Source: Basidiobolus meristosporus CBS 931.73
Lineage: Eukaryota; Basidiobolomycota; Basidiobolomycetes; Basidiobolales; Basidiobolaceae
Direction: 5' to 3'
Assembly (NCBI GenBank): GCA_002104905.1
Contig: MCFE01000574.1
Span: 1-56,767 of the forward strand
DNA: 56,767 nt
The notes under the pieces were generated by a model. The model saw only the letters and a program-made list of their open reading frames with translations, did no database searches and was not told where the DNA came from. The translations under genes and the position numbers were made by a program. Numbering within the stretch: the stretch's first letter is position 1; each line of letters opens with the position of its first letter. Below are positions 33,000-56,767 of the stretch, in pieces.

Positions 33000-33252
33000 T
33001 GCGATTAGCGTACTCACTTTATCTGTGATGGTCAATATTACTGTCGAAATTGGATTTGGCGATGATGTAATCACATTTAGTACTGTTATCTTTGTAAAAA
33101 TTGTTATATGCGGATCAGTTGCACAACCTGTCTGACCACTTATTATTCATTACATAGCAATGATGCACTCAATGTTAAGGTAGGAACTGTTGTTATAGTA
33201 AGAACCCTTTATTGTGGAGTCTCACTACGGCTCGTTAAATCTGTGGTATTTT
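33000..33252 (-). pseudogene. Decayed stalk sequence downstream of array copy 3
   Basis: Aligned to a long-gene stalk unit and to 29035-29277 (almost identical in the 110 bp next to the stop). Frames are interrupted. Confidence 0.72.
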
Positions 33253-34143: not shown

Positions 34144-34530
34144 ATTTAATAATAGATATTTCCAAGCATTTCATTCATTTATAAACTAGATACAACATCG
34201 CATCAGGACAATCTTTTGGCCTTCGATATCTTTGCGGATAGCCCTATGACCGCTGTTGATTGACTAAATTTCTGGTTTGCAGGGTATCTTTTCTTGATTT
34301 GTATCTCGATGTATCCGATTGGAATGTGTCTGTTCTTGATATATATCTAGATGCATCCGATTGGAATTCATCTTTTGGTGATATATATCTAGATTCAATA
34401 AGTGGGCACAAGTAATGGCCGATTGGCAGCCATTCGGGAAAATCAGTGCGCGCTGTAAGCTGATAAGCTGAGCCACCCGGGAGAATCAATGCGCTTGGTG
34501 GGCTGATAAGTGGAGCCACCCGGGAGAACT
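34144..34530 (-). promoter_or_regulatory. Upstream region of array copy 3
   Basis: TTTATAAA class near the ATG, two 42-bp CCAAT units (~34310-34375), and two CCACCCGGG units (~34475 and ~34515), one fewer than copies 1, 2 and 5. Confidence 0.5.
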
Positions 34531-37269: not shown

Positions 37270-37494
37270 TAACTGTAATGGTTATTATTGAGGTCAAAAT
37301 TGGGGTTGACGTAGAGATAATCGAATTCAGTACTCTTTTGATTGTAAGAATTGGCGGTTCTGTTACATAACTTTCTGACCACTTACCATTGGTTGCACAG
37401 TAATGATGTAATCAATGTTGAGGTAGGAACAGTTCTTATTTCTAGAATACTTTATTTTGGAGTATCACTACTACTGATATGATTTCTGGTATTT
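37270..37494 (-). pseudogene. Decayed stalk sequence downstream of array copy 4
   Basis: Aligned to a stalk unit. Nearly identical to the copy 1 remnant (25400-25487) over the last ~90 bp, including TATTTCTAGAATACTTTATT. Confidence 0.72.
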
Positions 37495-38385
37495 TTAGTT
37501 TACACTACTGGAAGTGGTATTCGCTACCAGCATGTTGCAAGCATTCGAAGTTGTATATCCCGAGTGGCCGCAGACTTTGTTGCTTGGACAACACGACAGA
37601 TGAGGATTAAGATAGTCACCAGTTGGGCAAACAAAGGTGTATGGACTGTCTTCGGATTCGCAGTAGTATCCACCGTAATTGCTATTACAAGCGTTCAAAG
37701 CGTTTTGGTACACGCTTTCGGGAAAGTCCCCACACCCTTCTCTAACATCCTCTTTTTTCACATTGCACCCATTGCTTGTTAGTGAGATGCCCACATGGCC
37801 GCATACATTTCCACTATCACAACATTCGGTGTCAACGCTTGAAGTTTCGGAATTGCAAACTAATTTGAAGGGGCTATATGCCGAAGGGCAGTAGACACCA
37901 CCACTGCCAATAGCGTTGCAGATGCTTACAGCGCTCTGAAACTCCTCTTGCGAAGGCTTTGCTGAGCAATCTTTCTTGCTGGATCCTGAACTTGAGGTCG
38001 GCTCCCAGTATTGTTGGCATAGCTCAGGTATGTTATCAACATTTACGCCTGGATTGCCATTCATATCACACGGAGTGGAATCCCAAAGTCCCACTTCCAA
38101 GTTGGTGTATGTATTTGGGGGGCAACATGTCAGTTGGGCCGGACTTGCTCCATCACATTCGTAATAGTAGACGCCGTTTGTTTCAGGCACCCAGAAGTTG
38201 GTAGCGCCGGCATTGAGATAGCTGTTGCGACATTTCTCATTGGCAACTTCTTGGGATGTTGCCATCGAGAAAAATGCAGCTCTGTCACCGTTGAATGTAG
38301 GGTGCGCATTTGCGAGTAGTTCACTGCTGGTTGTAAGTGCTAGCACAAGTGCCGACAATCTCATAAAAGAATCGGTGAGCATCAT
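37495..38385 (-). CDS. Secreted cysteine-rich protein, short form, array copy 4
   Basis: 296 aa. It combines the MML start and 5' class of copy 2 with the ANTTSSSVN end and 3' class of copy 1. One private change is Ala to Glu in CNSETSSVD. All 22 cysteines and the signal peptide are intact. Confidence 0.9.
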   Translation of the reverse strand: MMLTDSFMRLSALVLALTTSSELLANAHPTFNGDRAAFFSMATSQEVANEKCRNSYLNAGATNFWVPETNGVYYYECDGASPAQLTCCPPNTYTNLEVGLWDSTPCDMNGNPGVNVDNIPELCQQYWEPTSSSGSSKKDCSAKPSQEEFQSAVSICNAIGSGGVYCPSAYSPFKLVCNSETSSVDTECCDSGNVCGHVGISLTSNGCNVKKEDVREGCGDFPESVYQNALNACNSNYGGYYCESEDSPYTFVCPTGDYLNPHLSCCPSNKVCGHSGYTTSNACNMLVANTTSSSVN

Positions 38386-38770
38386 AGTTAATAATAGATA
38401 TATCCAGGCATTTCATTCATCTATATACTAGATACAACATCGCATCAGGACAATCTTTTGGCCTTCGATATCTTTGTGGATAGCCCTGTGACCGCTGTTG
38501 ATTGACTAAATTTCTGGTTTGCAGGGTATCTTTTCTTGATTTGTATCTCGATGTATCCGATTGGAATGTGTCTGTTCTTGATATATATCTAGATGCATCC
38601 GATTGGAATGTATCTTTTGGTGATATATATCTAGATTCAATAAGTGGGCACAAGTAATGGCCGATTGGCAGCCATTCGGGAAAATCAGTGCGCGCTGTAA
38701 GCTGATAAGCTGAGCCACCCGGGAGAATCAATGCGTGTTGTAAGCTGATCAGTAGAGCCACCCGGGAGAT
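38386..38770 (-). promoter_or_regulatory. Upstream region of array copy 4
   Basis: TATATACTAG class as in copy 2, two 42-bp CCAAT units (~38555-38620), two CCACCCGGG units (~38715 and ~38758). Confidence 0.5.
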
Positions 38771-40929
38771 CTAGTTGTGATGAATTGTACAATCTCAAAA
38801 ATGTGGGATATATACGGTATTCATATAACTTCCTTAATGAATTGCATGTTGAATATGAGATCCTAATTCGACTTCAACCCTGGTTGAAAATAGATACCTC
38901 AATTAAATCACAATGGGCGGGAAATTATTTTTATTCTGGTAAAACTTGCTCAACATAAAATAGCTCCGCTATGGGGTTTTGTAGGAATTATCTGAATTGT
39001 ATCCAGCTCATGGCTGATCCAATCAAAAGGGTTACCAATTTCTGTTTTACTAGATCCATATTCCTAATTGGTCCCATAATCATGCACTCCTACTATAAAT
39101 GGTTGCAATGGCGCTCAAGCGAATCATCAGTGATGCTAATAGAATAAAGGGGATATTCGAGATTGGAATGTACCAATATTCGAAATGTTGGTCTCGTGAA
39201 GCCAACCCTACTTTCCGTCAATGATTGTGGCTTCTTGAGTCCAGGATATTTTTGATCTGGAGAACCAACCATTCGATCACTCCGCCTCTAGAATGACTTG
39301 TTGCTATTGGCCGGCTATATTTGTAAACCTTAAGATCTAATTAATCTAGATACATATACTACCGCGCTTACCTAAATTGTAAACCCGGAGAGGTTAATTA
39401 AGCCTTATTAATAAGATCGGTCTGTGCGTTGAAGGAGGCGGAGGGTCCCCGATTTCTTCAACAAGTAGTATTACCTAGAATATTAGTCACTATGAAGTTC
39501 TTATATCAAGCTCTAGTGGTTTCAGGATAATCATGAGCATTGAAGAAGTTTCTAATCTAATTTTGCTCAGAACTTCTCAAAACATGCCTTTTCCATAAGC
39601 CACAACCCTGCTTAAAAGATCTAGGCCAACCAAGCTCCATCATATGAAGAATAGTGAGCTTTCTCAATAATATTCATCGAATTTCTATATTGATAAAGCT
39701 ACATTACGGGTGATATGAATACTGTTTGCAAAATATGGGACAAAGCCGTTACTGGTGATCAGAACATGCCAATATGATTAAAAAAGCGAAACAAATGTCA
39801 GTATGAATCCGGAAAGACATTTAGCCAGTAAGAAATTACTTCACACACTAGATTTTTATATTTCGTGATCATGATTATGTCATGCAACTATTGATGATCT
39901 ACTTCTATTAACATACTTTCGTTCATGTTAAATGTTGCGTTATACATATAAATTCTGAGAGGCGATGCCCCTCCACTCCGACAATGCGTCCATCTCTTCG
40001 TCGTGCTTGCCTTTGGCGATTATCGTGTCGGAGCTAGTCGAACCTGATTAGGCCATAATCACGTAAAGGACATTAATTTCACAAACGATCTCCTCAATTG
40101 CTAAATCCATTGAAATTCAGATACATTGTAGTTACTCCTACGGGTTCATTTTTGAGTTATCCTATTTAATTGCCACTTTGTTCCTACGTGTGGACTACTA
40201 AATACTCTCTCATATAGCTCCCGGATGACATATGCAAGTGAAGTCGTTGTCAATTTTGATCTCCAACATGCACTGTGGATAGATTATGGTATCAAATCTC
40301 TGCACACACACCATCGATCTGAGCTTAGCCTTTCAGCGATCTATCTGAAGCTATTCAGCTATTACGTGTTGCATTATCCGCACCGGGGAAACTTTTAGAT
40401 CGATTCTGCCAAAATAAAAGCTTACATTCTCAATGGAACACATAGTGATGACTTTATCGACAAAATATGGCAGCATTTCTAAAATATCATATTGGAAACT
40501 TCATAGCCTATAAACGTATGGTTTTCGTAAGTGCAGGTCTTAATTGCTGCTAGAGTTGTTGCTTTGATTACACCAGGGTTTGAGCTACACAAACCTCGAA
40601 GCATGCTTGAGAATTAATGTCAAACAAAGTCGGATATTATCATATGCACCTTGGCCATACTAGATTATTGCTCAGCATTACCAAGATCATTATTTAATCA
40701 CTGAATCGTATAACTGTACTCAATTGTCCACATTATGGTTAAGCTTTCGATACAAATTAGGCGCCTGTTTCTAATTACCCAAAAGATTATATGGTGTTTG
40801 CTCCATCCGTCCCTCGGCAAAATGAGCTTCCCGTTGAACAATTACCAACAAAAGAGATCCTGATTTCACCACTAACAAAAGAGCCATAGCCACCTCTGCA
40901 ATTTCTTAACTAGAAGGGAAGGAGTATGG
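38771..40929. other. Array spacer between copies 4 and 5, left part
   Basis: No convincing gene. The spacer landmarks recur. The segment 40215-40520 duplicates 36560-36870, and the CTCGGCAA..GAGCTTCC block at ~40810 matches ~6180 in the long-gene spacer. Confidence 0.55.
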
Positions 40930-41095
40930 AACGGCAGATATATAAAGTGAAGATCCTTCTCCAGTAGTAAAGAAACTCTTCAGGGACATCAGAGGGAGAT
41001 AAAAGGAAGGGAAACTCACCAGTTGGCAAACTTTTGATTCTAACTGAATGATATCAAACTGCCTCATAAAATAAAGAAGCCAGCAAGTCCATACC
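40930..41095 (-). mobile_element. Fossil LINE pieces in the spacer: ORF2 tail and 3' end
   Basis: On the minus strand, LPLMSLKSFFTTG (~40970-41010) corresponds to the ORF2 tail fossil at 6760-6865. At 41018 GGGAAACTCACCAGTTGG starts a LINE 3' terminus that runs to AAAGAAGCCAGCAAG. The same pair in the same order occurs at 6760-6965, so the insertions predate the duplication of this spacer. Confidence 0.55.
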
Positions 41096-41419
41096 CTGTC
41101 TCAAGGCAAATATAAATACAGGGTCTTCTGTAGCTCTTCAGCAGAATCAAATTCATGCAACTTAAAAAGTGGCGGCTGTTACACTAAATATTGGCAATGT
41201 TACACTCGTTGCGATAGCCATTGTTTGAGTTACCACTGCCAGAGTCACCCATGTCATGCTTACTGATACTGGAATGATCATTACCATTGCTAATGTCGGA
41301 AGAGTGATCATGATTAGTGAATTCAATGCTAAGGCTCAATGAGAGTACTGGTTTCACTAATGGTTTAAGTAACAGTGATCGCGACTGAGATTAATCAGAA
41401 CATTTTTAGGTTAGTGTAC
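41096..41419. other. Spacer right part with Thr/Val-rich remnant
   Basis: A minus-strand frame over ~41200-41330 reads LPTLAMVMIIPVSVSM and T/V-rich sequence, matching 32780-32930 and 37060-37200. Position (about 400 bp past the stop of the short gene) and composition suggest the decayed distal end of the stalk region; the alternative is conserved spacer with no coding past. Confidence 0.4.
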
Positions 41420-41657
41420 TCATTTCATCTGTGACAGTTGTTATCAATATCGAAATTGGAGTCGACGTCGATGGAATCATATTTAATGCTATTGTGATTG
41501 TACGAATTATCATTAACGGTTCCGTTGCATAACTTTCTGACCACTTTGAGTTTCTTACACAGTAATGCTGTAATCAATGCTGATGTAGGAACAGTTGTTA
41601 TTTCAAGAATACTTTATTTTGGAGTCTCGTTACAACTCGTAGTGTCAGCGTTATTTT
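41420..41657 (-). pseudogene. Decayed stalk sequence downstream of array copy 5
   Basis: ACATCAGCATTGATTACAGC and GTGGTCAGAAAGTTATG on the minus strand align with a stalk unit, and ACTCCAATTTCGATATTGAT with the distal repeats near 160. It forms a third 3' flank class, distinct from copies 1/4 and 2/3. Confidence 0.7.
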
Positions 41658-42548
41658 CTAATTTACAATACTGGAGGTTGTATCCGATACAAGCATATTG
41701 CAAACATTCGAGGCTGTATATCCCGAGTGGCCGCAGACTTTGTTGCTAGGACAACACGACAGATGAGGATTTAGATAGTCACCAGTTGGGCAAACAAAGG
41801 TGTATGGACTGTCTTCGGATTCGCAGTAGTATCCACCGTAATTGCTATTACAAGCGTTCAAAGCGTTTTGGTACACGCTTTCGGGAAAGTCCCCACACCC
41901 TTCTCTAACATCCTCTTTTTTTACGTTGCACCCATTGCTTGTTAGTGAGATGCCCACATGGCCGCATACATCTCCACTATCACAACATTCGGTGTCAACG
42001 CTTGAAGTTGCGGAATTGCAAACTAATTTGAAGGGGCTATATGCCGAAGGGCAGTAGACACCACCACTGCCCATGTCGTTGCAGATGCTTAGAGCACTTT
42101 GTAATTCCTCTTGCGAAGGTTTTGCTGAACAACCTTTCTTGCTGGATCTTGGACTTGAGGTCGGCTCCCAGTATTGTTGGCATAGCTCAGGTATGTTATC
42201 AACATTTACGCCTGGATTGCCATTCATATCACACGGAGTGGAATCCCAAAGTCCCACTTCCAAGTTGGTGTATGTATTTGAGGAGCAACATGTCAGTTGG
42301 GCTGGACTTGCTCCATCACATTCGTAATAGTAGACGCCGTTTGTTACAGGAACCCAGTAGTTAGATGCGCCGGCATTGAGATAGCTATTGAGGCATTGCT
42401 CATTGGCAACTTTTTGCGATGTTTCCATGGAAAAAAATGCAGCTCTATCGTAGTTGACCGTAGGGTGCGCATTTGCGCGTGGTGCACTGCTGGTTGTAAG
42501 TGCTAGCACAAGTGCTGACAATCTCATAAAAGAATTGGTAAACATCAT
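41658..42548 (-). CDS. Secreted cysteine-rich protein, short form, array copy 5 (mosaic)
   Basis: 296 aa. From about residue 160 to 280 it is practically identical to copies 1-4. The N-terminal half carries changes that instead match the long gene at 1-2397: SMETSQ, ASNYWVPV and CCSSNTY. It also has private changes (SSPRSSKKGCS, ICNDMGSGG). It keeps all 22 cysteines. The signal peptide differs slightly (SSAPRANA). The pattern indicates gene conversion of the 3' half by the array, or retention of an older 5' half. Confidence 0.9.
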   Translation of the reverse strand: MMFTNSFMRLSALVLALTTSSAPRANAHPTVNYDRAAFFSMETSQKVANEQCLNSYLNAGASNYWVPVTNGVYYYECDGASPAQLTCCSSNTYTNLEVGLWDSTPCDMNGNPGVNVDNIPELCQQYWEPTSSPRSSKKGCSAKPSQEELQSALSICNDMGSGGVYCPSAYSPFKLVCNSATSSVDTECCDSGDVCGHVGISLTSNGCNVKKEDVREGCGDFPESVYQNALNACNSNYGGYYCESEDSPYTFVCPTGDYLNPHLSCCPSNKVCGHSGYTASNVCNMLVSDTTSSIVN

Positions 42549-43512: not shown

Positions 43513-44020
43513 GGGTTAGAGGGGAGACAGTCACCAACAGGTGAAATCTTTATTTCAGTTGAAACAAAGAAGCCAGCGCTACTGCTGTAGCTTGGATACA
43601 AGAGTGTGTAGCTGAGGGGAATTTGTAGGTAAGTTAATAAGAAGTGATGATAGTTCTTCAGTGCTCAAGACACTGTTCAGTGGGAAGGGGGGTAGCAAGA
43701 GAGGTAATTTGTAGGTAAGTTAACAAGGAGAGATGATAGCTCTTCAGTGCTCAAGACACTGTTCAGTGGGAAGGGGGGTAGCAAGAGAGGTAAGAATGAT
43801 TTGTGAACAACATAAATAAATGGAAGATGATATGGATTAATATTCATCATAAAGTGAGTGTGCTACTTCAGATATTGCTGCCAAAGGTCTGTCAAGTGCT
43901 TCAGGTAGGCCAGCTTGGGCTTTTCTGACTGCAGAATATAATGAGCAAACTTCTAGACATCTGGATCTCCAAGTATAGTTCTCCAGCAGGAGCCAGGTGT
44001 AGCATGGTGAGTGCTCTTCC
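43513..44020 (-). mobile_element. LINE copy a: 3' end, cut by a copia LTR
   Basis: The plus strand starts GGGTTAGAGGGGAGACAG and then follows the 3' part of the LINE at 46722-48030. It contains the ORF2 C-terminus in decayed form and an internal 86-bp tandem duplication (43620-43705 and 43706-43791). It ends at CTCTTCC where the copia LTR starts at 44021; the intact copy has CTCTTCCAGGCC at ~47135, so the copia inserted into this LINE. Confidence 0.85.
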
Positions 44021-44370
44021 TGTTGTAAGAGTCTTGGAGATATTGGAAGTGATTGGGTGGACAAGTCGATTATGTGGTTTTCACTTAATGATATATTGAA
44101 TGTAAAAGTAGTATTTATACTTTTACATGGCCTTGGCATAACAAACACGTAGAATAGACTTAGAAAGGTCCCAAGAACATGTGTGCAAAGTTTGGGGCTG
44201 TTTAGACAACTTTGAGAATTCTGATGATTTGGGTACCTGATATTTTGGTGAAGATATTCCAAGTAAATCCTGACATTGACTTTGGTCACTATTCACTAAG
44301 ATTGGGTAGGAAATGATCTAGGTGACTAAGTTAGGTGAATGCTTAGGTGGAATTACAAGTTTTTACAACA
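44021..44370 (-). repeat. Copia LTR (element 2)
   Basis: 350 bp, reverse complement of the copia LTR consensus (ends TGTTGTAAGAG at 44021 and TTTTACAACA at 44370 on the plus strand). Confidence 0.88.
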
Positions 44371-44381
44371 CTCCCACTCAA

Positions 44382-46097
44382 CTAAATGTTCATACTGACC
44401 AGTCCTAATTTTGACCTAAGATATTCAAAGCTGTCCCTAGCTAATGGTTTGGTAAATATGTCTGCAGTCATTTCATCAGTAGGACAGTCAACTAATTTAA
44501 GTAAGTTATTCACTAAAGCTTCACATATGAAATGATGTCTAATACCTATGTGCTTAGTTCTGGCATGAAAAGTTGGATTTCTACCTAATTGTACACATGC
44601 TACATTATCTTGAAATAGAGTAATAGGCGTTTTTTGACATAAGCCTAAGTCTTGAAAAAGCTTCTTTAGCCTCATGGCTTCTTTTGTAGCCTCACAGGCT
44701 GCCATATACTCTGCTTCTGTGGTGGAAAGAGCTATGGTAGGTTGTTTTCTAGAATTCCATGAAATTGCTCCTTTACAGTAAAGAAAGGTGTATTGTGTGG
44801 TGGATCTTCTGTCTTCTAAACTTTGTCCCCAAATAGCATCAGTATATCCCACAAGATCCTGTTTGGAATCCTTATAGGTGTACCTTAAGGAGATATCAGC
44901 AGTTCCTTTTAGGTATCTAAATATCTGCTTAACTGTTGCAATATGATCAGATCCATAGATCTGATTATGCTGACTGACAACTCCCACTGAATGCAAGATA
45001 TCTGGACGTGTTCTGAGCATGATACACATCAGACTGCTGGCCATGGATTGATAAGGAAAGTCTGGGCTTTTAGATGGCACCAAGCTCTCCTGAATTAGGT
45101 TACGTTTTGACCAAGTTGTGGTTTGTCTCTGTTGAGGTAGCTGCCGGTTTACAGTCTTCCATTTTGTACTTCTTTAGTATATCTCAAATATACTTGGACT
45201 GGCTTAAGGTGATAGTCTGGGTACTTCTTTCTATGGAGAACTCTATATTTAAGTAGTAACTGAGTTTGCCTAGATTGGACATCTTGAACTCCTTGGATTG
45301 GCTGGTTTTAGTTTCTTCCAATGTTCATAGGTTATTGGCGGCTAAAATAAGATCATCCACATATAGAGCTAATAAAACTGGATTTGCTCTATCTGGCTTA
45401 TAGTATATACTGTAGTCATCATTACTCCTTTTGAAGCTCAAAGATTCCAAATAAGAATCTATTTTGCAATTCCAGGCTCTTGGTGATTGATTGAGTCCAT
45501 ATAGAGATTATTTAAGCTTGCAGACCAAATGGGGGTTATTTTGCTCAACAAACCCATCAGGCTGGTCCATATACACATCCTCATCAGGTTTTCCATTCAA
45601 AAATGCAGCTTTTACATCCATTTGATGTATAAAAAACTTATATTTGGCTATAATAGCCAATATTAATCTGTTGGGATTAAACTTGGCTAACAGTGCAAAG
45701 GTTTCAGTTTAGGCAAGTCCGTTTGTTTCGGAGTATCCTTTGGCTACTAGTCTTTCTTTGTATCTTTCAGTTGTACCATCAGCCTTGTATTTTGTCTTAA
45801 AGAACCATCTGCATCCAATTGATTTTTGGTTGATTTGTAATTTGACTAAGCCCTAAGTTTGATTTTCTATTGGGGCCTTATATTCCTCAGTCATTGCAGA
45901 TCTCCAAAACTTTGTCTGAGGGCTATTTAGGGCCTCTTTCACAGTCTGAGGCTCACCAATATGGACTGAATAGGCATAGACTAAGTTTGTATCCTCATTG
46001 ATATAGTAATTAGGGCTATTTCTTGTCCAATTTGATCTCCGGGCATTTGATATTGAAATGATTACTTCTGGGATATTCCTGGGCACTGATTCTGGCT
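44382..46097 (-). pseudogene. Copia element 2 pol: RT and RNase H
   Basis: Minus-strand order: TQPESVPRNIPEV linker (46097), EALNSPQTKFWRSAMTEEY, RT with YVDD (encoded at ~45352-45363), then RNase H with TTEAEYMAACEATKEAM and C-terminus LVSMNI at 44382. RNase H and the end of RT are open over 45083-44382; the RT core has frameshifts and a Trp-to-stop change. Translation through 46122 would give a chimera with LINE sequence (MVTVSP joined to ITQPESV), a junction artefact. Confidence 0.83.
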
Positions 46098-46512
46098 GGG
46101 TTATGGGGGAGACAGTAACCAACAGGTGAAATCTTTATTTCAGTTGAAACAAAGAAGCCAGCACTACTGTTGTAGCTTTGATACAAGAGTGTGTAGCTGA
46201 GGGGAATTTGTAGGTAAGTTAATAAGAAGTGATGATAGTTCTTCAGTGCTCAAGACACTGTTCAGTGGGAAGGGGGTAGCAAGAGAGATAAGAATAACTT
46301 GTGCACAACATTAATGAGGGGAATGTGATAAGGATTGATATTCATCATAAAGGGAGTGTGCTGCTGCAGATATTGCTGCCAAAGGTCTGTCAAGTACTTC
46401 AGGTAGACCAGCTTGGGTTTTTCTGACTGCAGAATATAATGAGCAAACTTCTTGACTTCAGGATCTCCCAGTATAGCTCTCCAGCAGGAGCCAGGTGTAG
46501 TGTGGTGTGTTC
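46098..46512 (-). mobile_element. LINE copy b: 5'-truncated 3' end
   Basis: Starts GGGTTATGGGGGAGACAGTAACC, runs through the ORF2 C-terminal region and stops at GTGTGTTC (corresponding to ~47130 in copy e), followed at once by a TTAGGG-type tract. About 410 bp of the LINE 3' end. Confidence 0.87.
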
Positions 46513-46534
46513 TTAGGGTTAGGGGTTAGGGGGG
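46513..46534 (+). repeat. Short telomere-like tract between LINE copies b and c
   Basis: Plus strand reads TTAGGG, TTAGGGG, TTAGGGG and then GG of the next LINE end. It is not present at the equivalent internal LINE position (where CTCTTCCAGG follows), so it is junction sequence. The orientation is the G-rich strand pointing right. Confidence 0.85.
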
Positions 46535-46690
46535 AGACAGTCACCAACAGGTGAAATCTTTATTTCAGCTGAAACAAAGAAGCCAGCGCTACTGTTGTAG
46601 CTTTCATACAAGAGTGTGTAGCTGAGGGGAATTTGTAGATAAGTTAATAAGAAGTGATGATAGTTCTTCAGTGCTCAAGACACTGTTCAG
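46529..46690 (-). mobile_element. LINE copy c: 5'-truncated 3' end
   Basis: GGGGGGAGACAGTCACC through CAAGACACTGTTCAG, about 160 bp, then interrupted by TTAGGGGGGAGACAG where copy d begins. Intact copies read CTGTTCAGTGGGAAGG or CTGTTGAGTGGGAAGG at this point. Confidence 0.87.
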
Positions 46691-46714
46691 TTAGGGGGGA
46701 GACAGTCACCAACA
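46691..46714 (-). mobile_element. LINE copy d: only the last ~20 bp of the element
   Basis: TTAGGGGGGAGACAGTCACC then AACAG, followed directly by GGTTAGGGGGGAGACAG of copy e. It consists of just the terminal nucleotides of the LINE between two telomere-like motifs. Confidence 0.8.
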
Positions 46715-46716
46715 GG

Positions 46717-48030
46717 GTTAGGGGGGAGACAGTCACCAACTGGTGAAATCTTTATTTCAGTTGAAACAAAGAAGCCAGTGCTACTGTTGTAGCTTTGATA
46801 CAAGAGTGTGTAGCTGAGGGGAATTTGCAGGTAAGTTAATAAGAAGTGATGATAGTTCTTCAGTGCTCAAGACACTGTTGAGTGGGAAGGGGGGTAGCAA
46901 GAGAGGTAAGAATGACTTGTGAACAACATTAATGAGGGGAATGTGATAAGGATTGATATTCATCATAAAGGGAGTGTGCTGCTGCAGATATTGCTGCCAA
47001 AGGTCTGTCAAGTACTTCAGGTAGGCCAGCTTGGGTTTTTCTGACTGCAAAATAAATTCAGCAAACTTCTTGACTTCAGGATCTCCAAGTATAGTTCTCC
47101 AGCAGGAGCCAGGTGTTGTGTGGTGTGTTCTCTTCCAGGCCTTAATCAGTGGGTTGGTGCAGTTGTGAAGTCTGAGGTATAATCTGGTTCTAAGGTAGAG
47201 AAGTCTGATCTTATAGGGCATAAACCCAAAAGCACCAAGAATAGCATGTCTGTAGGGGCATTCAGGCAAATGAGGCACCAAGGAGGTAATGCACCATACT
47301 GCAAACTTGTCAAGCTTAGTGCAGTCTCTAGAAGTAAGAGAGAGAAGTGGTAAGCCAAATTCCAGGACAGGGAAGACAAACTGCTTGAGTAGAAGGAGGC
47401 AGCTGGGAGCTGAAGTTGTAGGAGGAGTAACAGCCAGTAGCTGGTGGAGTGCCTGTCTTGCCAGGATAATTCTCTTCTTCAGGTGTGCTCCAGAGTCTAG
47501 TCCAGTAGGAAGGAAAGGAAAGCCAAGATATGTAGCAGAAACCTGAGCAGGTAGAGTGAAGTTCTTCAAGTTGATGGGAGAGCCCAAAGATACTGTCTTT
47601 GCAATGGAAAGCTGGAGATTGTTCTTCTGCAGATACTGGTGGATGGTCTGGGAGTCTTGTTGCACATTGGAGGAGGATATTCTGATGTCATCAGCAAAGA
47701 GAGTAACCAGGCAGTCAGCTGAGAGTCTTGGGAAATCATTCAGGAAGATGGCAAACAGTATAGGACCAAGCACAGAGCCTTGAACCACTCCATTAGGAAC
47801 TGAGAACACAGCTGATTGCTCACTTGGGTGCAGAATTCTTGCTTGTTGATCCAGAAACAAAGACCTGACAAGGAGGGTGAGAGAGGTACTGGAGAAGCAT
47901 TGCAACTTGGACCAAAGCAGATTTCTGTCAACTGAATCAAAGGCCTTAGTAATATCAAACAGAACAGAGGGATACTTGCACTGGAGAGAGTGATCTTGGC
48001 TAAGTATGACTGCATATTCCAAGGAGAGGC
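46717..48030 (-). mobile_element. LINE copy e: 3' 1.3 kb with open RT frame, cut by gypsy LTR
   Basis: 3' end GGTTAGGGGGGAGACAG at 46717. A 3' UTR of only ~60 bp contains AATAAA on the minus strand, then the ORF2 stop at 46781. It is the best preserved LINE segment. The gypsy 5' LTR starts at 48031 inside the RT region, and the LINE 5' part does not reappear to the right of the gypsy element. Confidence 0.88.
46781..48030 (-). CDS. LINE ORF2 C-terminal part: reverse transcriptase and tail (5' part missing)
   Basis: About 416 codons open. Motifs in order: FDITKAFDSVDR (RT motif A), NGVVQGSVLGPILF (motif B), LVTLFADDIRIS (motif C with FADD), then thumb and a C-terminal domain ending LHTLVSKLQQ. 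No endonuclease or RT fingers remain. The Met at 48046 comes from gypsy LTR sequence and is not the native start; native LINE coding starts at about SLSLEYAVILSQDHS. The absence of frameshifts, unlike the LINE at the right edge, suggests a recent copy. It cannot make a working enzyme as it stands. Confidence 0.85.
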
Positions 48031-48708
48031 TGTTGTGCATCAACATTTAAAACTTAGCCAATTTTACTCCGTTTGAAAATCTAGTACCCTAACTGATTTT
48101 CCCTAACCCAAACATAACAAATCCCAGTTACAGTTTATTTTATCCCACCTCAGAATCTATTTTTAGCTATCACACCTGGTCTATTTTCAAATGGTCATTA
48201 CGGTATCAACCTATCTGCCAAGCCTTCCCAGGTGATTAGTCATCTGAGAACTATCCAACCACGGTGCAGTTGCCAAGACATCAGTTGATTGATGATGAAA
48301 TTTTCATTTATCTTATGCACCTATGAACACCCAAATTTATCTCAATCAATCCAGTCTCTTGGCGCTTACTAAGTCAACTTGATCAGAAAAGTATAAATAA
48401 AGTTTACTGAACCTTTTGGTTTAGTGTGTGTCTCAACAAAATTAAGATTCTGTCTCAGCAAAAATAAGAATCCAACAATTCCGTTCTAGTTTCTATCCAA
48501 GCCTAGTATATCTAGTACTCCAAAGAACACCAAGCATAGCCTGCCTAGCAAACAAATATCATTGCCTTTATAGCCAACCCAGCTATATCCAAGACCAATA
48601 TTAGATCAGAATCTTTCTGCTAATATTTCCACCACTCTCTGACAATTCTAAGATTCTGCACTTAATTGTCCCTTTGGTTCAGTTAAACCATTCAAGAGTT
48701 TTAATACA
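48031..48708 (+). repeat. Gypsy 5' LTR (element 2)
   Basis: 678 bp, same length as the block A 5' LTR and homologous throughout, with the TATAAATAAAG motif at ~48391. Confidence 0.88.
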
Positions 48709-48767
48709 CTTTCTCTTGGATACAACATTTTTTTTGTTGAATTCCATTACATTCAGCCAATTAGAAG

Positions 48768-51220
48768 ATGTCCTCAGCAGCAAGCAATCCAAACCTTTCC
48801 ATGTTGGAAGAGGCCAGAAGAAATCAGGAAGAACTTACTGAACAGCTTGAAAACATCATGCTTGAAAGAAATACCATGATGCTTGAGCACTCAAAGCTTG
48901 CCAAAACAAGATCTGATAATCACTGTAGAGATGAACTCCTTGAAGTTATATCCGGTTACTAAGATGAAATTGGAATAATTAAGGAAGCACTGGAGAATAT
49001 TGCCATAGTAATTGACAGCATTGAAAATCCGCCAAGCCTTGCTCTGCATCAGCCACCAAGAAGTCATGCCTTTGAGTCCTCCAGATCTACATCTCCTTCT
49101 AGACCTGCCCCGGTGGTTGTCCCAAGATCCTTGCCTGCTTATGCTGAAGGCACCAATGCCATCAAGAATCCAACTGAGTTTTTTTACAAGTTTAGTCACG
49201 TCTTAGCTGCACACCAGCTAGACCCTGACACCAACTGGGCTAGACTCCTGCCTCTCTGTCTCACAATGCAAGATGATGACTGGGTTGAAGTGAACATTCC
49301 TTCCAATAGTACGTGGAAAATTGCCCAAAACCTCTTTTGCAGCCATTTTGAAGATCCTCTCAAGAAAGCACATCTGAACTGCGACTTATGGAAAACTAAA
49401 ATGCAAAAAGGTGAATCTGTGCAACACTTCTGTGATAGATTCCAAAGACAAATGAGATTAGCCGGAGTTAGTGATGATAATCCATTGCTTACTGCTCATT
49501 TTCTTTCAAACTTTTCACACCAGCTACAGAGCAATATTGCTATTGTCAAAGCATGTAACCCTGCACGTACCTATGACCAGATCTCAGAGATATGTACACT
49601 GGCAATCACCTTGACTGCAGCTGTTAGCCAGACTTCAGGCAACTCAACCCAATATCCCACAACAGCCGGAAAAGAGACCAGTCATGTGACCAAGAAGCAA
49701 TCAACCGCTACCAAGCACTGTGAGCTTCATGGAAAATGCTATCATACTACCAGTGAATGCAAAGGCATCACCAAGCAGTCAAACAAGTCAGGAAACACCG
49801 CAGAAAAGCAGCAAAACACCAAAACTGATAATCCATATGCTGATGACAAGTGCTTTAAATGTGGAAATATGGGACATAGATCACCTGCCTGTCCTGAGAA
49901 GAACTCCACACCATCAGCCAAAATTACCCAGATCCTTGATGATCATTCAGCCAATGATACAACAAGGTATGAAGAAGCATATAAAGAACTTACAGTTCAA
50001 GATTATCACAACCTCTTTGAGTTTCCGGCTAAAATTGCAACTGTTCAAGAAAAGAAGCAACCAATCACCCAGCTCAAAGCCATAGAAGTGCCACTCACCC
50101 TCAATGGCCAATCATATGTAGCACTACTGGATACTGGATCATCCAACTCTATTGTATCACCCAATGTAGTCAGAGAACTCAATTTGGAGATAGAAAAACG
50201 TCCAGGAAAAATCATTCTTGCAGCTAAGGATCTCTCAGCCCCAAGAATTGGCATTACCAACCCAATCAACATACATTGTGGCTCAGTAACCATAATCCAT
50301 CAGATGGAAGTGATTGACATACCAGATGGACCTCAGGTAGTCATTGGTCTGGACACCTTCAGCAAACTTGGCTTTCACATAGGCGGACTACCAGTTTCCT
50401 ATCCAGGAATCACTAAATCTCAGCCACTCATAATGGATCAAATCCCAGAGATTATCTCATCCCAACCAGAAGAAGAAGAGTTAACCCCAACTTTTCAAGA
50501 ATATTCTCAATCAGTCAAATTGGATATTCAGCCGGCCATAGAGAGAAATCAGGCCATTCCAAGGAACAGCTTCTGCACCATCCCAGAATCCATTGTTACA
50601 CTAGAGACCCCACCTGGTGAGTCAACATGGAGGAGGCAATACCCAATTCCGCATTCATGTCAACACTTAGTTGATGAGATAGTCCAAAAATGGGCTGACA
50701 ATGGAATTATCACTCAAGCCCCTGTCAACACAACATTCAACAGCCCTTTGACGCTTGCACCAAAGAAAGATGCTGATGGAAATCTAACCTTGAAGAGACC
50801 CTTTTTGGACCCCAGACCTCTGAACAAGCTTCTCCAAGATGACAAGTTTCCAATTCCAAGAATCCAAGATATCTTTTCCGCACTATCAGGAGCAAAAGTA
50901 TTCTCCAAGTTGGACTTGAAGGATGCATATCACCGATTCCAGATCCATCCTGATCACCAGCATAAGACTGCCTTAACTTGGAATAATATGCAATGGATGT
51001 TTCAGGGAGCTCCCTTTGGCCTAAAGACACTTACCAGCAAGTTTCAGAGAGTCATGACTATAATACTCAAGAATGCACCATACGCATTGGTATTTGTTGA
51101 TGATGTCATCATATTTTCCACTAACTGAGATGATCATGCAGCCCATGTCACTGATGTAATCAACAGACTGACAACTGCTGGACTGATTCTCAATGCTGAA
51201 AAGTGCAGTTTTGCCCCCTC
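48768..51220 (+). pseudogene. Gypsy element 2 gag-protease-RT, two in-frame stops
   Basis: One reading frame from MSSAASNPNLSMLEEARRNQ at 48768, broken only by TAA at 48960-48962 (CAA in the block A copy) and by TGA at 51126-51128 right after the RT core; a frameshift follows near 51220. The 671-codon open stretch 49113-51128 holds capsid-like gag, CCHC (CFKCGNMGHRSPAC, ~49850-49893), protease LLDTGSSNSIV (~50130), and RT (KLDLKDAYHRFQIHPDHQ, GAPFGLK, FVDDVIIFS at ~51095-51118). Gag and pol are fused in one frame, common in chromoviruses. The two stops could be recent single-base changes. Confidence 0.88.
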
Positions 51221-51229
51221 AAAATCAAT

Positions 51230-52575
51230 CTACTTGGATTTATAGTCACACCAGCTGGCCACCAAGTTAGATCCTTTCAAACTGGTCAATATCCCAGAAT
51301 GGCCAAAACCCACTAGCGCCAAGCAACTTCAACATTATCTTGGAGTATTCAACTATTTCAGGGAACACATACCACTCATGTCCTCATTGAGTGCCCCTTT
51401 AGATGCATTACGCCATAGCCCTGATCTCACCTCAGCCTGGAACAAGACTCATGACCAAGCCTTTGAGTCACTCTGCCAACTGCTTCCACAAGCACCCACC
51501 TTATCCTACCCAGACTTTACTAAGCCCTTTGTTGTTGCTACGGATGCATCTAATGTTGGGTTAGGGGCAGTCCTCTATCAAGATGAAGACCAAAATCCGC
51601 CTCACTGGCTCTCTTTCCAAGCCAGGTCCCTACAACCTGCTGAGAGAAACTACTCTGCTACCAAGAAGGAGCTACTTGCCATAGTCTTTGCCTTGAAGAA
51701 GTTTCATCAGTATCTATGGGGTAATCCTTTTACCTTGTACACTGACCACCAAGCCCTTGTCTATATCCACACTCAGAAGACTCTGACTCCAATGCTTACC
51801 AACTGGCTTGATACTCTACTTGATTATGAATATACAGTTATTCATCGCCCAGGAATTCTCAACATCCTTCCTGACCACCTGTCAAGACTTTTTCCAACTT
51901 CACCTTGGGAGGGACATGTGATTACTGATGTAATCAGTAAACTCTCTACAACTTCCAAAATAATTCCTCAACTGGATTCAGCAACTTGGAAAATCCCACC
52001 TGAAGAACAAAGGAAAACATTGATACAGAGGAGTCATTTACTTGGCCACTTTGGAGCTGACACACTTATGAAGAAGCTACACTCTGATGGATATCACTGG
52101 CCAAATATCAAAGTTGACTGCTTAGAATTTGTCAAGTCGTGCAGAGAATGTCAACTTTATAATATCAGCCGCCATGGATTTCATCCTTTGAGCCCCATCC
52201 ATGCAAGCCTTCCTATGGATCATATTGCAATTGATCTAGCTGGACCTTTCACCACTAGTGATGATGGTAATCACTACCTCTTTGTCATTGTGGATGTCTG
52301 CACACGTTTTGTCTACCTCAAAGCTATTCCAGACAAGTATGCTGCCACTATTGCACAAGAACTATTCAAGCTCTTCTGCCTTTTTGGATTCCCTAAGGTC
52401 ATTCAATTGGATAATGGAACAGAATTTGTGAATCACGTGATCAAAGCCTTTGCAGAATAGCGCCATTGATCACCGTCTGATCACTCCATATCATCCAAAG
52501 CTATGGACTGCTGAAGACATGTTCAGACTCAGTGAACATCATCAGAATCTATCAAAGGTATCAAGAGAATTGGAC
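51230..52575 (+). pseudogene. Gypsy element 2 RNase H and integrase (3' truncated)
   Basis: Open from 51378 to 52460: RNase H (VVATDASNVGLGAVLYQDE, TKKELLAIVFALKKFHQYLW), integrase HHCC (HFGADTLMKKL ... CRECQ), and core motifs HIAIDLAGPF and VIQLDNGTEF. The frame is lost at 52458-52460 (CAGAATAGCG) and continues in another frame as SAIDHRLITPYHP, with further single-base losses before truncation. The same CAGAATAGCG string is in the block A copy. Confidence 0.83.
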
Positions 52576-52626
52576 AAGTACATCGACTGTACAATAGACT
52601 GTTCTGTGGATAGTGCCAATAGTGCT

Positions 52627-52784
52627 AGGGGGAGACAGTCACCAACAGTGAAATCTTTATTTCAATTGAAACAAAGAGCAGCGCTACTGTTGTAGCTTTG
52701 ATACAAGAGTGTGTAGCTGAGGAATTTGTAGTAGTTAATAAGAAGTGATGATAGTTTCAGTGCTCAAGACACTGTTCAGTGGGA
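52627..52784 (-). mobile_element. LINE copy f: 5'-truncated 3' end with many small deletions
   Basis: Starts TAGGGGGAGACAGTCACC (52626) and follows LINE copies a-e to CACTGTTCAGTGGGA (~52784). Compared with them it lacks many single or double bases (for example CAACAGTGAAATC for CAACAGGTGAAATC, AAAGAGCAGC for AAAGAAGCCAGC, GAGGAATTT for GAGGGGAATTT). Confidence 0.82.
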
Positions 52785-52876
52785 GGGGTAGGGGGAGGGA
52801 AAGTCACCAAGTTGGTGAAATCTTTATTTGAGTTAAGAACTAATCTAAGTACAAATAAAGAAGCCAATTAAGAGGT

Positions 52877-55731
52877 CTAGAACCTCTCTAATAAGTAATC
52901 TAATCTATGTTTTGTTTCATCTCTAATGTTTGTTTCAATAAAGTAAAGCTCATCAGGGGTAAATATAAAATTCAGGGGTTTTGGGGGAAGTACAAATTGT
53001 AGATGTTTCTGATCAATATAATCCAAGACTGGAACCCAGCCTGGGATTAGGTGTAGTAGGAAAGGTGTGTGGACTTGTAAGTAGCTCTGCCACATAGATC
53101 TTAGATGGTCCTGAGCCAGTAGTCTTGGTTTCTCAGCTTTTTGAAGTTTTGAAGCAAGCTCTGTTACTACAGCAGAGCCAACCAGGGTGTGCCAGCAAGA
53201 AGATTTCAGGGAGGAGTTAGATTGAAGCCATTAGTTTGATGGAGGGGTTATGTGATTTCTGAAGTTTGACTAGGAAGGAAGCCCGGAGATAGATCATTCG
53301 GATTTGGTATGGGTAGAACCCAAAGGCTCCATTAGTTGCATGGATATAGGGAGATACTGGAAGATAAGGTACCAAGGATCTGATACACTGATGGAGAAAT
53401 TTATCCAGGCGGTGAAGTTCTCTGGAGGTTAGGGGTATAATGTGGAGACCAAATTCAAGTACCGGCAGCACATACTGCTTCAGAAGTATAGGGATCTTTT
53501 GAATTGGAGTGTCTGGAGTGACTACTACCAGAAGCTTTTTGAGAGCCTGTTGGGCAAGACGGATCCTATTATTCAGGTGGAGCTTTGAGTCAATCCCATG
53601 TTGACAAAACGGCAGACCTAGATATATTGCAGTTTGTTGTGGCAGAATGCTAGTGTTCTGTATAGTTGTAGTGCATCCAATTGGGACTGTCTTGGAAATT
53701 GAGAGTGAGAGGTTGTTGGCAGCCAAGTACTTCTCAATGATGGCAGTGTCTGCTATGGGATTAGGAGTAGCAATCTTGATATCATCCGCATAGAGAGTTA
53801 GTAGTGGATAGGGAGAGTCTGGTGAGGGGCCTTTTGGAAATAAAGGAAAGTCATGTAGGAATATCACAAATAGTAAGGGACCTAGTACAGATCCTTGGAC
53901 TACTCCATTTGGAACCTCATAAGTCTCTGATGTGACAACTTGGATGCAAAATTTTGGCTGAGTTCTCACAAAATAGAGAACGTACAAGAAGGGTCATTGG
54001 TAGTGTGGTAACTGCTAATAGCTTTCTCCAAAGCAGAGCTCTGTCCACAGAGTCAAAGGCTTTAGTAATGTCAAACAGAATGGTTGGCAATGAGAATTGA
54101 AGTGAATGATCATGGCTTAGCACTACAGCCATATCCAAGGAGAGTTTGGGCAAGAAGCCAAACTGAGAAGGATGGAATGGATATAGTTGAGATTGCAAGG
54201 ATCTTGCTATCATAAGCTCAAAGATTTTCCGGCAGGTTGGTAGGAGTGAAACTGGCCGGTAAGAACCTGGGAGTGAGTGTTTCCCCTTCCCTTTGTATAA
54301 GGGTATTACATTTGCCTGTGACCAGGCCTTTGGGGTAGTCAATTGTTGGGCACAGATAGAGTAGAATGGGAGAAGTAAGTGACTCATTTTGGAGTAGCAC
54401 ACCTGGAGTAGATCGTAGGTAATCAAGTCATGTCCAGGTGCAGTATTTGCAGGAAGCTTCTTTAAAATTTTCTCCAGAAGCTTTGCTGAAACCACAATTG
54501 GAGATGTTGGACTGGTAGATATGTTACCAGTATGGTAGAAAGGAGGAGTGGGATGCATCGGTTGAATCAAAGAATATAGGGGCCAGTTTGTCTGGTGATG
54601 GTATACTCCTTGCTTGGGGTCTCATGGCTTTGTATACTCTTGATATGGACCTTGTGGTGGCATTCATATTTACTAAGGGCAAGGTATCCATGATATGAGC
54701 CCATAATCTAGTATGCTCAGTGATCTGTAGTGACTTGGAGTAGGAGATTGCGCTTTCCAGGAGGTTCTGTGTTTTTGGGTTAGGGAAACATAGGTAGCTG
54801 GAATTTAAGGCAGAAATGATGGATTTCCATTTAAGTTGGTTTGCAGATGGCTTTTGGTAGGACTTGGTGGGCAGGGCCAGACAGCCAGTGATTATGATGA
54901 AATGCTGGTAAAATAGCCATAATGCATTTATATCATCACAAATCCATGCAGGTAAGCTGGGAAATGCATATTCTGTAAGCAAGGATAGGTAGTTGGCAAA
55001 GTCCTGTGTCCTGTGATACTGAAGCTTTGGCTGGCAGGATTGTAAACGGCTGAAGAAGGGTGCCAATTGGTAGGGTTTTTCTGGCAGAAATGATAATGTG
55101 TATTGGCTTGTGATCAGATTTCTCTAGTGAACCACAGCTGATATCCTCTGGAATGCTTGTAACCTGGTGGATGTACTGTAAGGCAGCTGGAGTAGCTGTT
55201 ACCCAGTCAACACAACGTTGAGCTTGCTGAGTGTTTACAGTGACCAGATGGTTTTGTCGGAGGAACTTTGTAAAGTGCTCCTCTCGGGTTCTAAGTCTGG
55301 ATGAAATAGTGGTGATATTTTCAGGGTGGGGAATATTTATATCTCCCACTACCATACAAGGGATTGATGAGCTGTTGAATGAATTCTGATGTGGCCAAGA
55401 AAATTGCCAGTGTTATGGAGTTAGACAGAGATGGAGGGAGATAGATAATAATGGCTACTATAGTTGGAAGTGTTAGAGCATAGCAGTAATACTCATAGAT
55501 GATGGATACATTTGCTGAGGGTGCAAGCTTAGAAGATGAAAGAGCAACAAGTGCCATTGAGTGAGCTGGAAATTTTGGGTGAGCAGATGAATATGCATTC
55601 AGTCTAGAGGGAAGTTTTGGCAACTTAACATCAATTAGTAGGAGCAAGGAATATTCCTTTTTCAGTAAGTTTTCTAATTCAGCTACAGTTGGAGTGATGG
55701 AGTTGCAATTGAGTAAGAGTATGTTCTGTAG
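52877..55731 (-). pseudogene. LINE copy g ORF2: APE endonuclease, RT and C-terminal domain, frameshifted
   Basis: Minus-strand pieces in order: NILLLNCNSITPTVAELENL (55725-55665) and the following EN segment to 55321; EN C-terminal part with VVGDINI and SDHKPI (55355-54936); linker (55066-54524); RT fingers/palm with KGKGKHSLPGSYRPVSLL and FDITKAFDSVDRALLW (54570-53917); RT with NGVVQGSVLGPLLF and LYADDIKIA (53940-53217); tail ending LDYLLERF (53095-52877). Successive pieces change frame at least four times, so ORF2 is inactive or the sequence carries errors. The active-site motif is YADD, versus FADD in copy e. Confidence 0.85.
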
Positions 55732-56767
55732 TCAGGCAGACTCTGAGGTTGCCTGTTCCTGCTGAAACTCTTGCACTGCCCTTTGTAAATTTCCAGAATT
55801 ATTCCACAACTCTTCAAATGGAGCTTGCGTAATGTCTTTCAGGATTCTAATTGCTTCCTCTTTCAAGAAGTAGGCCACATCATAGGTTGGAGCCTGTTTC
55901 TTAATGGCAGCAAAGAAAGCCATAATTGCCATGTGAGCTGGGGGCTTGTTGAATATTCCTGGCTCAGTGTCCATTGACTCTGGTGGAATGATTGTGAATT
56001 TGGTAGGCACCCAGTTTAGATTTTTTGCCAGATACTTAGTCAATGCAGTGGAGAAGTTTCTGTCTACAATCATTTCTAGGATCTTTCCTCTTCTCCAAGC
56101 TAGGTTAACAATTTTTGAAGTGTCAATATTTAGAGAGCGGAATGTATGTCTGATGTTTGATATAGTAGTCCATGGAACATTGGCAAAGTATAGCAAGGAC
56201 CAATTCTGGAGCTGAGGTAAGTTTGCTGGAGGCTTATAGGTAGACTTCCTGGCAGGTTGTGTGGTAGGCTTTAGTGTTTCCAAGTTAGCAAGTTGTGGTT
56301 GAGACTTTTTGGAATTACGTATGACTTTGGAAAGAATTCTGCCAGCAACTGTGTCAGGAATGTTAGTACTCATTGCTGGTGCAGGGCCTGGCTCCTGGTA
56401 CTGCTTTTGTAGAATACTTGAGTATGTCTCTTTTTGTTTTCCTTTATCCAATGTGCTATGCCTTGGAATGGGATTTTGGGGAATAGAGAATTCAGGTATC
56501 AACTCTGGGGTCTGGTGATTGTCCAACATTGTTGCTTGAGCTTCCAGCTTTTCCTCTAAGATTTGAACTCTCTGCTTAAGCTCATCATTTGATGCTATAA
56601 GTGTTGCATTGTTTGGAGCCAGGTCAGGTGTTGAGTTATGAAGGCAGGTTGAGCAGCGTTCTAACTCCTTGGTTTGGTCATCCAACTTTTCTTCTAAGGT
56701 TTGAACCCTCAATTTGAGTGCACCATTTGAGGTTAGAAGCTCCAAGTTATCAGCCTGCAACTTCTTT
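55732..56767 (-). CDS. LINE copy g ORF1 (gag-like, 5' part beyond window)
   Basis: Open for at least 345 codons from the window edge to TGA at 55732-55734. No native Met is visible near the edge, so the start lies to the right. The N-terminal part contains two related coiled-coil stretches (LELLTSNGALKLRVQTLEEK and LIASNDELKQRVQILEEKL), followed by a basic, Pro/Gln-rich linker and a domain with SLLYFANVPWTTISNIRHTF, which may be an RRM-like nucleic-acid binding fold as in many LINE ORF1 proteins. ORF2 continues in the same frame after the single stop. ORF1 itself shows no lesion. Confidence 0.8.
   Translation of the reverse strand, partial: KKLQADNLELLTSNGALKLRVQTLEEKLDDQTKELERCSTCLHNSTPDLAPNNATLIASNDELKQRVQILEEKLEAQATMLDNHQTPELIPEFSIPQNPIPRHSTLDKGKQKETYSSILQKQYQEPGPAPAMSTNIPDTVAGRILSKVIRNSKKSQPQLANLETLKPTTQPARKSTYKPPANLPQLQNWSLLYFANVPWTTISNIRHTFRSLNIDTSKIVNLAWRRGKILEMIVDRNFSTALTKYLAKNLNWVPTKFTIIPPESMDTEPGIFNKPPAHMAIMAFFAAIKKQAPTYDVAYFLKEEAIRILKDITQAPFEELWNNSGNLQRAVQEFQQEQATSESA

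Follow-up and report, generated by a model that had tools for sequence, protein, structure and literature searches.

What builds a run of retrotransposon ends that all face the same way, each preceded by a fragment of telomere repeat, at the edge of a fungal contig? The question is raised by a contig of 56,767 bases (C840) from Basidiobolus meristosporus CBS 931.73, a species of the early-diverging phylum Basidiobolomycota, whose genome comprises 89.0 Mb in 1311 contigs. The whole contig is termed the window below. Its right part carries truncated copies of a long interspersed nuclear element (LINE), which a first-pass annotation had read as a terminal, one-directional array of truncated copies. 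That reading is supported by the outward orientation of 38 of 38 copies on long contigs, by TTAGGG joints, and by copies that abut terminal telomere arrays. The region is probably a subtelomere built by terminal retrotransposition, in which RNA of the LINE, or of a short interspersed nuclear element (SINE), is copied onto bare or barely capped 3′ ends that telomerase then recaps. Chromosome ends in this fungus thus appear to be built jointly by telomerase and mobile elements. The names “LINE-1-type”, “lineage 2”, “copia” and “family 3” are working labels, and the LINE-1-type element is not mammalian L1.

Telomere repeats, polarity and joints

Terminal (TTAGGG)n of 49–235 nucleotides (nt) closes 21 of the 40 contig ends examined, which are right ends of contigs picked for carrying listed LINE 3′ matches, and no authentic host repeat differing from TTAGGG was seen there. 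These arrays hold 25–38 units, with one exception of 8. Contigs ending in (TTAGGG)n next to the LINE had been proposed as a place to look, and they were found: the sequence adjoining the 21 arrays is LINE-1-type in 8 cases, SINE in 6, family 3 in 2, copia in 1 and unmatched in 4. This means that 14 of the 21 lie directly on LINE or SINE sequence, and 4 of the 6 arrays that abut a SINE begin at CTTGG followed by TTAGGG, a few bases from the SINE 5′ end. LINE copies also run straight into a terminal (TTAGGG)n at loci L022, L032 and L034. Genome-wide, the count of TTAGGG 18-mers corresponds to roughly 290 arrays if each holds about 28 of them. Contig C880 matches a telomerase RNA-binding domain above cut-off (best E 1.6e-8) in two pieces that resemble exons, one of which has an in-frame TAG; from these matches, the host seems to encode telomerase alongside its terminal elements.

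Two further observations concern the contigs themselves. Most are written with the telomere to the right, as seen both in the 18-mer of the TTAGGG repeat (8002 forward versus 103 reverse copies genome-wide) and in LINE 3′ ends (860 versus 93), which seems to reflect the assembly or the way it was deposited. In addition, a lone (TTAGGG)3, some 160 kb deep in contig C1 (C1:184730), is a candidate relic of a former end.

The LINE has a strict polarity. On contigs of at least 50 kb (n = 23), all 38 copies among the matches listed point their 5′ end outward, to the closer of the two contig ends, from which they lie 301–18,236 nt away (median 4,117). Mostly internal copies at unrelated targets, the pattern that would speak against attachment to chromosome ends, were not seen. 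Gypsy-type long terminal repeat (LTR) retrotransposons served as a control, for which 28 of 40 listed matches were placed on contigs of known size, 25 of them on contigs of at least 50 kb, the window’s own copy included. Of these 25, 14 face outward and 11 the opposite way, i.e. there is no polarity (LINE 38/38 versus gypsy 14/25, Fisher 7e-6).

A 28-nt word from the LINE 3′ end has 953 matches with up to three mismatches (860 forward, 93 reverse). Joints were read at 99 of the 100 places that head the listing, each an exact match, with C110:11285 left out; the G-run is part of the search word and hence uncounted, and joints with fewer than three Gs before GAGACAG are excluded. Among these listed matches, the G-run is preceded by A in 99 of 99, by TA in 94 and by TTA in 84; put differently, 84 joints show TTA, 10 TA only and 5 A only. 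The first-pass annotation had suggested collecting genomic copies of the LINE 3′ terminus and examining the bases beyond it, and these bases read at least TAGGG in 94 cases and AGGG in five, the latter being weak evidence taken singly. The 99 joints are spread over 60 contigs and comprise 95 distinct flank-plus-joint sequences, the duplicates being SINE 5′ ends; a SINE motif occurs in 14 of the 99 flanks. In a second sample, 24 of 29 plus-strand loci have TTA ahead of the G-run, two have TA and three have A. A chance origin of the joints is excluded genome-wide.

The joints are short, and the phase at which they start differs with tract length. The stretch in telomere phase beyond the G-run measures 1–9 nt in 95 of the 99 listed joints, i.e. 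no more than about two telomere units, and 11, 15, 24 and 41 nt in the other four; in 80 it is at most 8 nt. Two-unit tracts start at TTAGGG in 15 of 16 cases, while one-unit tracts start at any phase, with 19 of 65 at TTA (Fisher 2.7e-6). Moreover, at LINE joints C precedes TTA in 21 of 35 cases, and at the listed starts of telomere arrays it does so in 54 of 100 (Fisher p = 0.56), compared to an expected frequency of 0.23 from local composition. The array starts are 100 of 111 listed, with arrays preceded by G excluded, and some of their T cases may be within-array variants; most lie near a right contig end by position, and a following element is possible for some. Because C is equally common before LINE joints and array starts, telomerase is indicated as the source of both. 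The joint can be read as one template pass, most likely by telomerase, after which the LINE would take over.

Boundaries were surveyed at loci L009–L041 (minus L038), L137–L166 (minus L156) and L229–L231 and in the window. L038 and L156, which hold minus-strand copies, were dropped, and so were matches shorter than 60 nt or below 90% identity (93% in one step), and distinct sequences were counted. Among left boundaries of LINE segments, 56 of 60 fall at the element 3′ end. Four do not: at L155 the boundary is due to an LTR-type insertion, at L157 the segment comes after an LTR-type border, at L022 a 5′ region is repeated, and in the window there is an 86-bp duplication. The L155 insertion provides an internal positive control, since the interrupted LINE resumes there with a 4-nt overlap. 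No interrupted copy resumes after a LINE insertion at any of the 60 left boundaries, and internal insertion of LINEs into LINEs was rejected on this ground.

On the 5′ side, 45 of 59 distinct boundaries run into a TAGGG joint, beyond which lie the 3′ end of a lineage-2 or SINE element (21), that of a LINE-1-type element (17), a terminal array (4) or other sequence (3). The 29 nt that span the boundary thus include TAGGG in 45 of 59 cases, compared to 1.3% of 29-nt windows in positions 1–43400. The remaining 14 fall at LTR-type borders, at the 5′ repeat, at duplications or in unassigned DNA; at L030, which is one of these, a LINE joint has a G-run and lacks TAGGG. The point of truncation varies between reference position 68 and the full 4665.

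The elements and the chain in the window

The longest LINE copy examined is about 4.67 kb (L039:727-5391) and contains two open reading frames (ORFs). ORF1 encodes 511 amino acids, with weak matches, several of them to coiled-coil families. ORF2 encodes about 920 amino acids and has a LINE-type reverse transcriptase (RT; PF00078, RVT_1 at 2.6e-25) whose best PDB match is the LINE-1 ORF2 protein. Four relatives were compared with a 420-residue query; three show 57, 55 and 60% identity over 100, 94 and 76% of it, and the fourth shows 82% over 39%. At its N-terminus, ORF2 carries an apurinic/apyrimidinic endonuclease (APE)-like domain, for which Pfam matches are weak and below curated cut-offs. 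Exo_endo_phos is weakly matched in three of the four relatives, and the region gave no direct PDB match.

The motifs GD[LF]N and SDH are kept in the LINE and in the three relatives that reach this region, and lineage 2 has GDIN and SDH. The second endonuclease motif reads LIDV[KQ] in the two further-reaching relatives and in both Basidiobolus lineages. This motif usually carries QE; given this replacement, the LINE nuclease may be active, altered or dead. A pattern search found no CCHC motif of the restriction-enzyme-like type in the LINE ORF2 or in any of the four relatives.

Three observations touch the LINE beyond its main domains. Its 5′ region (L039:5050-5391, L041:2490-2640) contains TTAGGGTTAGGG. 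At L039 the 5′ region also has a repeated stretch with GGAT runs, possibly a promoter or a variable number tandem repeat. Finally, three tandem copies of the LINE ORF2 C-terminus make up most of one deposited Basidiobolus protein; the carnitine acyltransferase domain precomputed for this protein is probably a spurious Pfam label.

The LINE-1-type element, the SINE and lineage 2 have a similar predicted RNA 3′ end, in which a hairpin that pairs CACC with GGUG is followed by a pyrimidine and a C-run. The hairpin sequence is conserved, and its folding is thermodynamically modest (z = -2.3, -1.3 and -1.6, respectively). No poly(A) was seen at the LINE 3′ end in the copies shown, where the C-run and the TTAGGG joint directly follow the hairpin. 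Searches for known structured RNAs and tRNA genes found none.

The SINE has a unit of about 527 nt and shares its 3′ region with the LINE; its 3′ word, with up to two mismatches, has 482 matches (448 forward, 34 reverse). Box A (TAGCCTTGTGG) and box B (GGTTCAAATCC) lie near its 5′ end with starts 43 nt apart, and the box A pattern matches six more times elsewhere in the unit. No tRNA was found in the SINE by ARAGORN or Rfam, so a tRNA origin rests on the boxes. Its sequence suggests a tRNA-like, LINE-partnered SINE.

SINE joints resemble those of the LINE. Among 33 distinct 60-nt flanks, taken from the first 30 loci of the 482 matches and perhaps including another element that shares the 3′ word, 28 have up to 9 nt in telomere phase and five have 18–39; one joint has TTTGGG in place of TTAGGG. 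On contig C96, five SINE 3′ ends lie in tandem, 525–534 nt apart, with substitutions and differing joints. Since its four tandem units differ in substitutions and joint length, they look like successive additions and not one recent duplication; a simple tandem duplication was rejected because of these differences. Contig C337 compresses much of this arrangement into 921 bases: a LINE piece is followed by five TTAGGG units and a full-length SINE, then by CTTAGGGTTAGGGGG, roughly 46 nt of another SINE and a terminal array.

A third 3′-end family was also observed (TTCTAGTGCTTTATTGGG). Its end TTAGGGTTCTAGTGCTTTATTGGG stands on telomere-like joints at L039:9005-9787 and L041:4815-6270 and at the contig ends of C23 and C45. 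Outward of it lie 86-bp repeats that contain TTAGGG and adjoin the terminal array.

In the window, sequence inspection and BLAST bore out six LINE 3′ ends and a seventh of the second lineage, all facing left, with a TTAGGG-like motif before each of the seven. The annotated chain needs one correction, namely that two intervening pieces are LTR elements, one copia-type and one gypsy-type. All six LINE-1-type copies lie on the minus strand and begin at reference position 4–12, i.e. at the 3′ end. The chain opens with the joint GGGTTAGAGGGG (43513-43524) and a 5′-truncated copy (43513-44020; BLAST in two pieces), inside which Tandem Repeats Finder detects an 86-bp direct duplication (43620-43793). 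A minus-strand copia fragment follows (about 44021-46097; RVT_2, PF07727, matched in two pieces). It begins at an LTR-like border against the LINE (TGTTGTAAGAG, which recurs at L140), and its right side is cut by the next LINE.

Next come the joint GGGTTATGGGGG (46098-46109) with a copy truncated at about reference position 420 (46098-46513), the joint TTAGGGTTAGGGGTTAGGGGGG (46513-46534) with a copy truncated at about position 173 (46523-46691), and the joint GTTAGGGGGG (46690-46699) with a copy of merely about 27 nt of the 3′ end (46690-46716). The joint GGGTTAGGGGGG (46715-46726) then introduces a longer copy (46714-48030) with a C-terminal RT part of 421 amino acids (ORF 46781-48046; PF00078 at 4.2e-18). 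The plus-strand gypsy element (about 48040-52625) has broken frames. Like the copia fragment it begins at an LTR-like border against LINE sequence and is cut on its right by the next LINE, and no resumption was seen between that cut and the contig end. The last LINE-1-type copy (52628-52788), behind the joint TAGGGGG (52626-52632), is truncated at about position 181. The joint GGGGTAGGGGGAGGG (52785-52799) leads into the second lineage (52790-56767, minus strand), which has the same 3′ hairpin and pieces of RT, endonuclease-like domain and ORF1 in broken frames, and reaches the contig end.

To the left of the chain, five minus-strand ORFs of 296 amino acids lie about 4 kb apart within 25488-42548 (at 25488, 29278, 33253, 37495 and 41658), with 42- and 43-bp repeats nearby; one ORF was scanned and had no Pfam match. 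At 1-2406, an open frame of 802 amino acids, also with no Pfam match, spans a 114-bp tandem repeat of 11.6 copies.

Probable terminal retrotransposition and its alternatives

Terminal retrotransposition would begin at a chromosome end that is bare or has so far gained no more than two TTAGGG units. The G-rich 3′ terminus of this end would anneal to the terminal C-run of LINE or SINE RNA; the copies carry the hairpin-forming sequence and the C-run, and the true RNA end is presumed to match them. The LINE RT would then extend the chromosome end along the RNA from this putative primer, and the antisense copy would grow outward and often halt early, in keeping with the orientation and 5′ truncation observed. 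Telomerase, the presumed maker of the terminal TTAGGG arrays into which LINE and SINE sequences run, would cap the new end. Later loss of the tip would bare another end, and repetition of this cycle would yield a chain of truncated copies. LTR elements inserted in between would also be cut by tip loss, and such cut ends are seen in the window.

A more specific proposal is offered tentatively. The LINE and SINE pair may hijack what telomerase makes first: the G-strand from a single template pass (about CTTAGGGTTAGGG), added to a bare end, would become the primer of the LINE RT, and the endonuclease would be dispensable. Telomerase, the APE-like LINE and the SINE would then share the maintenance of chromosome ends, and the SINE would be extending chromosomes.

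Several points weigh against terminal retrotransposition. Of the contig ends examined, 19 of 40 have no telomere repeats, and some contig ends may not be chromosome ends. Gypsy copies also crowd the ends, since 20 of 25 lie no farther than 20 kb from one and the other five lie deeper; this means that end proximity is not special to the LINE, and that polarity is. A longer telomere run is present in 9 of 132 joints (4 of 99 in the LINE sample, 5 of 33 in the SINE sample), as expected from insertion inside an array. The endonuclease-like motifs GD[LFI]N and SDH are retained, so nicking inside telomeric DNA is possible, and some chains may be recombination copies between ends. Finally, the evidence is sequence, and both priming and the RNA end are inferred from copies.

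The alternative that survives best, although unlikely, is that the LINE RNA itself carries a telomere-like tail (about CCCUAACCCUAAG) and that any broken end primes by microhomology, without prior telomerase action. Stretches of at most 9 nt, as from one template pass, and an identical joint on diverse flanks would both fit such a tail. However, the C before TTAGGG that would mark such a template is just as common where longer arrays begin, which points to telomerase for both.

Somewhat less probable is nicking by the endonuclease inside (TTAGGG)n, in the manner of SART/TRAS or MoTeR, with fragile tracts of three or more units lost afterwards and joints of up to two units surviving. The conserved endonuclease motifs and the longer tracts just described favour it, and work on MoTeR arrays reports tracts between half a unit and over 20 units in length, of which those of up to two units are stable (PMC7367193). 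The phase skew argues the other way, because all phases should be equally frequent if whole units were lost independently, although a sharp ceiling on tract length could mimic it. Moreover, most joints are far shorter than the terminal arrays of 25–38 units. A stability ceiling on tract length, as in MoTeR, is the main rival to a single template pass as the source of the joint.

It is improbable that break-induced copying from other subtelomeres spread ready-made LINE–TTAGGG joints. Tandem amplification by copying is described for MoTeR arrays in telomerase knock-outs (PMC8381367), but the 95 distinct flank-plus-joint sequences among 99 listed places, and tandem SINEs that vary in sequence and joint, argue against it here. 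An assembly artefact, whereby contigs break at repeats and so gather repeats such as gypsy at their ends, is very improbable, since breakage gives no one-way orientation, and LINE and SINE copies that run directly into terminal (TTAGGG)n contradict it.

If chromosome ends are extended by terminal retrotransposition, the genome offers hundreds of candidate end-attachment events in a natural series ordered by position. LINE joints, set beside SINE joints and terminal arrays, could then show to the single base a hand-over from telomerase to retrotransposon RT. Chromosome-end retrotransposition would also be placed in the early-diverging Basidiobolomycota, with participation of an APE-like LINE and a SINE.

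Relation to known telomere-associated elements

The LINE shows the features that define telomere-associated non-LTR retrotransposons: location at ends, outward 5′ polarity and a 3′ end on telomere repeats. This lifestyle is known already from MoTeR, FoTeR, GilM/GilT, SART/TRAS, Athena and HeT-A/TART, and the Basidiobolus element, whose RT has mostly unnamed matches, is treated here as a variant that belongs to no named family. In Drosophila, HeT-A, TART and TAHRE form outward terminal chains by end-primed reverse transcription. The chains are alike in their outward, terminal arrangement; however, Drosophila is without telomerase, while Basidiobolus has a telomerase-domain match and TTAGGG arrays.

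Among fungi, MoTeR1/2 of Magnaporthe (Pyricularia) oryzae has the 5′ end outermost, a head-to-tail order and TTAGGG tracts from half a unit up, together with truncated copies, LTR insertions into arrays and a probably non-autonomous partner (PMC7367193). All of these features are common to the Basidiobolus chain. The two differ in that MoTeR has a restriction-enzyme-like endonuclease (PMC7367193) compared to the N-terminal APE-like domain here, and in that the Basidiobolus partner is a tRNA-like SINE. MoTeR 5′ ends also have TTTGGG repeats, while (TTTGGG)2 is absent from the Basidiobolus DNA examined. FoTeR of Fusarium oxysporum similarly comprises terminal, truncated copies that keep telomere repeats opposite the truncation, i.e. 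on the untruncated side as in Basidiobolus. Its 3′ tracts are of about 3–7 repeats and its endonuclease is restriction-enzyme-like (PMC12857005), whereas the joints here are mostly of up to two units and the domain is APE-like.

SART/TRAS of Bombyx mori has an APE-class endonuclease, coexists with telomerase (PMC5537684) and has two ORFs (PMC4700185). Two ORFs and coexistence with telomerase are likenesses; for the endonuclease, the APE-like domain here gives weak matches below curated cut-offs and keeps GD[LFI]N and SDH, with LIDV[KQ] as second motif. SART/TRAS inserts inside telomere arrays (PMC5537684), whereas 95 of 99 listed LINE joints have at most 9 nt, and it has a poly(A) tail at the 3′ end where the Basidiobolus LINE has a C-run. 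GilM/GilT of Giardia forms one-direction, head-to-tail arrays with 5′ truncation between subtelomere and telomere repeats (PMC5537684). It shares array direction and truncation with the LINE and differs in host and element.

In bdelloid rotifers, Athena carries a short telomere stretch at its 3′ end and is 5′-truncated, as is the Basidiobolus LINE, and this has been read as attachment at uncapped ends (PMC5537684). Athena is, however, a terminal Penelope-like element without endonuclease whose RT is closest to telomerase, while the RT here is LINE-type by its RVT_1 and PDB matches and endonuclease motifs are kept. Hebe, an APE-type LINE in rotifer subtelomeres that is chained with Athena, is without 5′ truncation and has poly(A) (PMC2861651), whereas for the Basidiobolus LINE truncation is the rule and no poly(A) was seen in the copies shown.

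Among titles and abstract openings of open-licence PMC papers, there was no report of terminal retrotransposition in Basidiobolus, nor any of chromosome ends being built by a SINE. Compared to the systems above, what differs here is an APE-like LINE together with a SINE, short joints of mostly up to two units on otherwise non-telomeric DNA, and a C-run end without poly(A).

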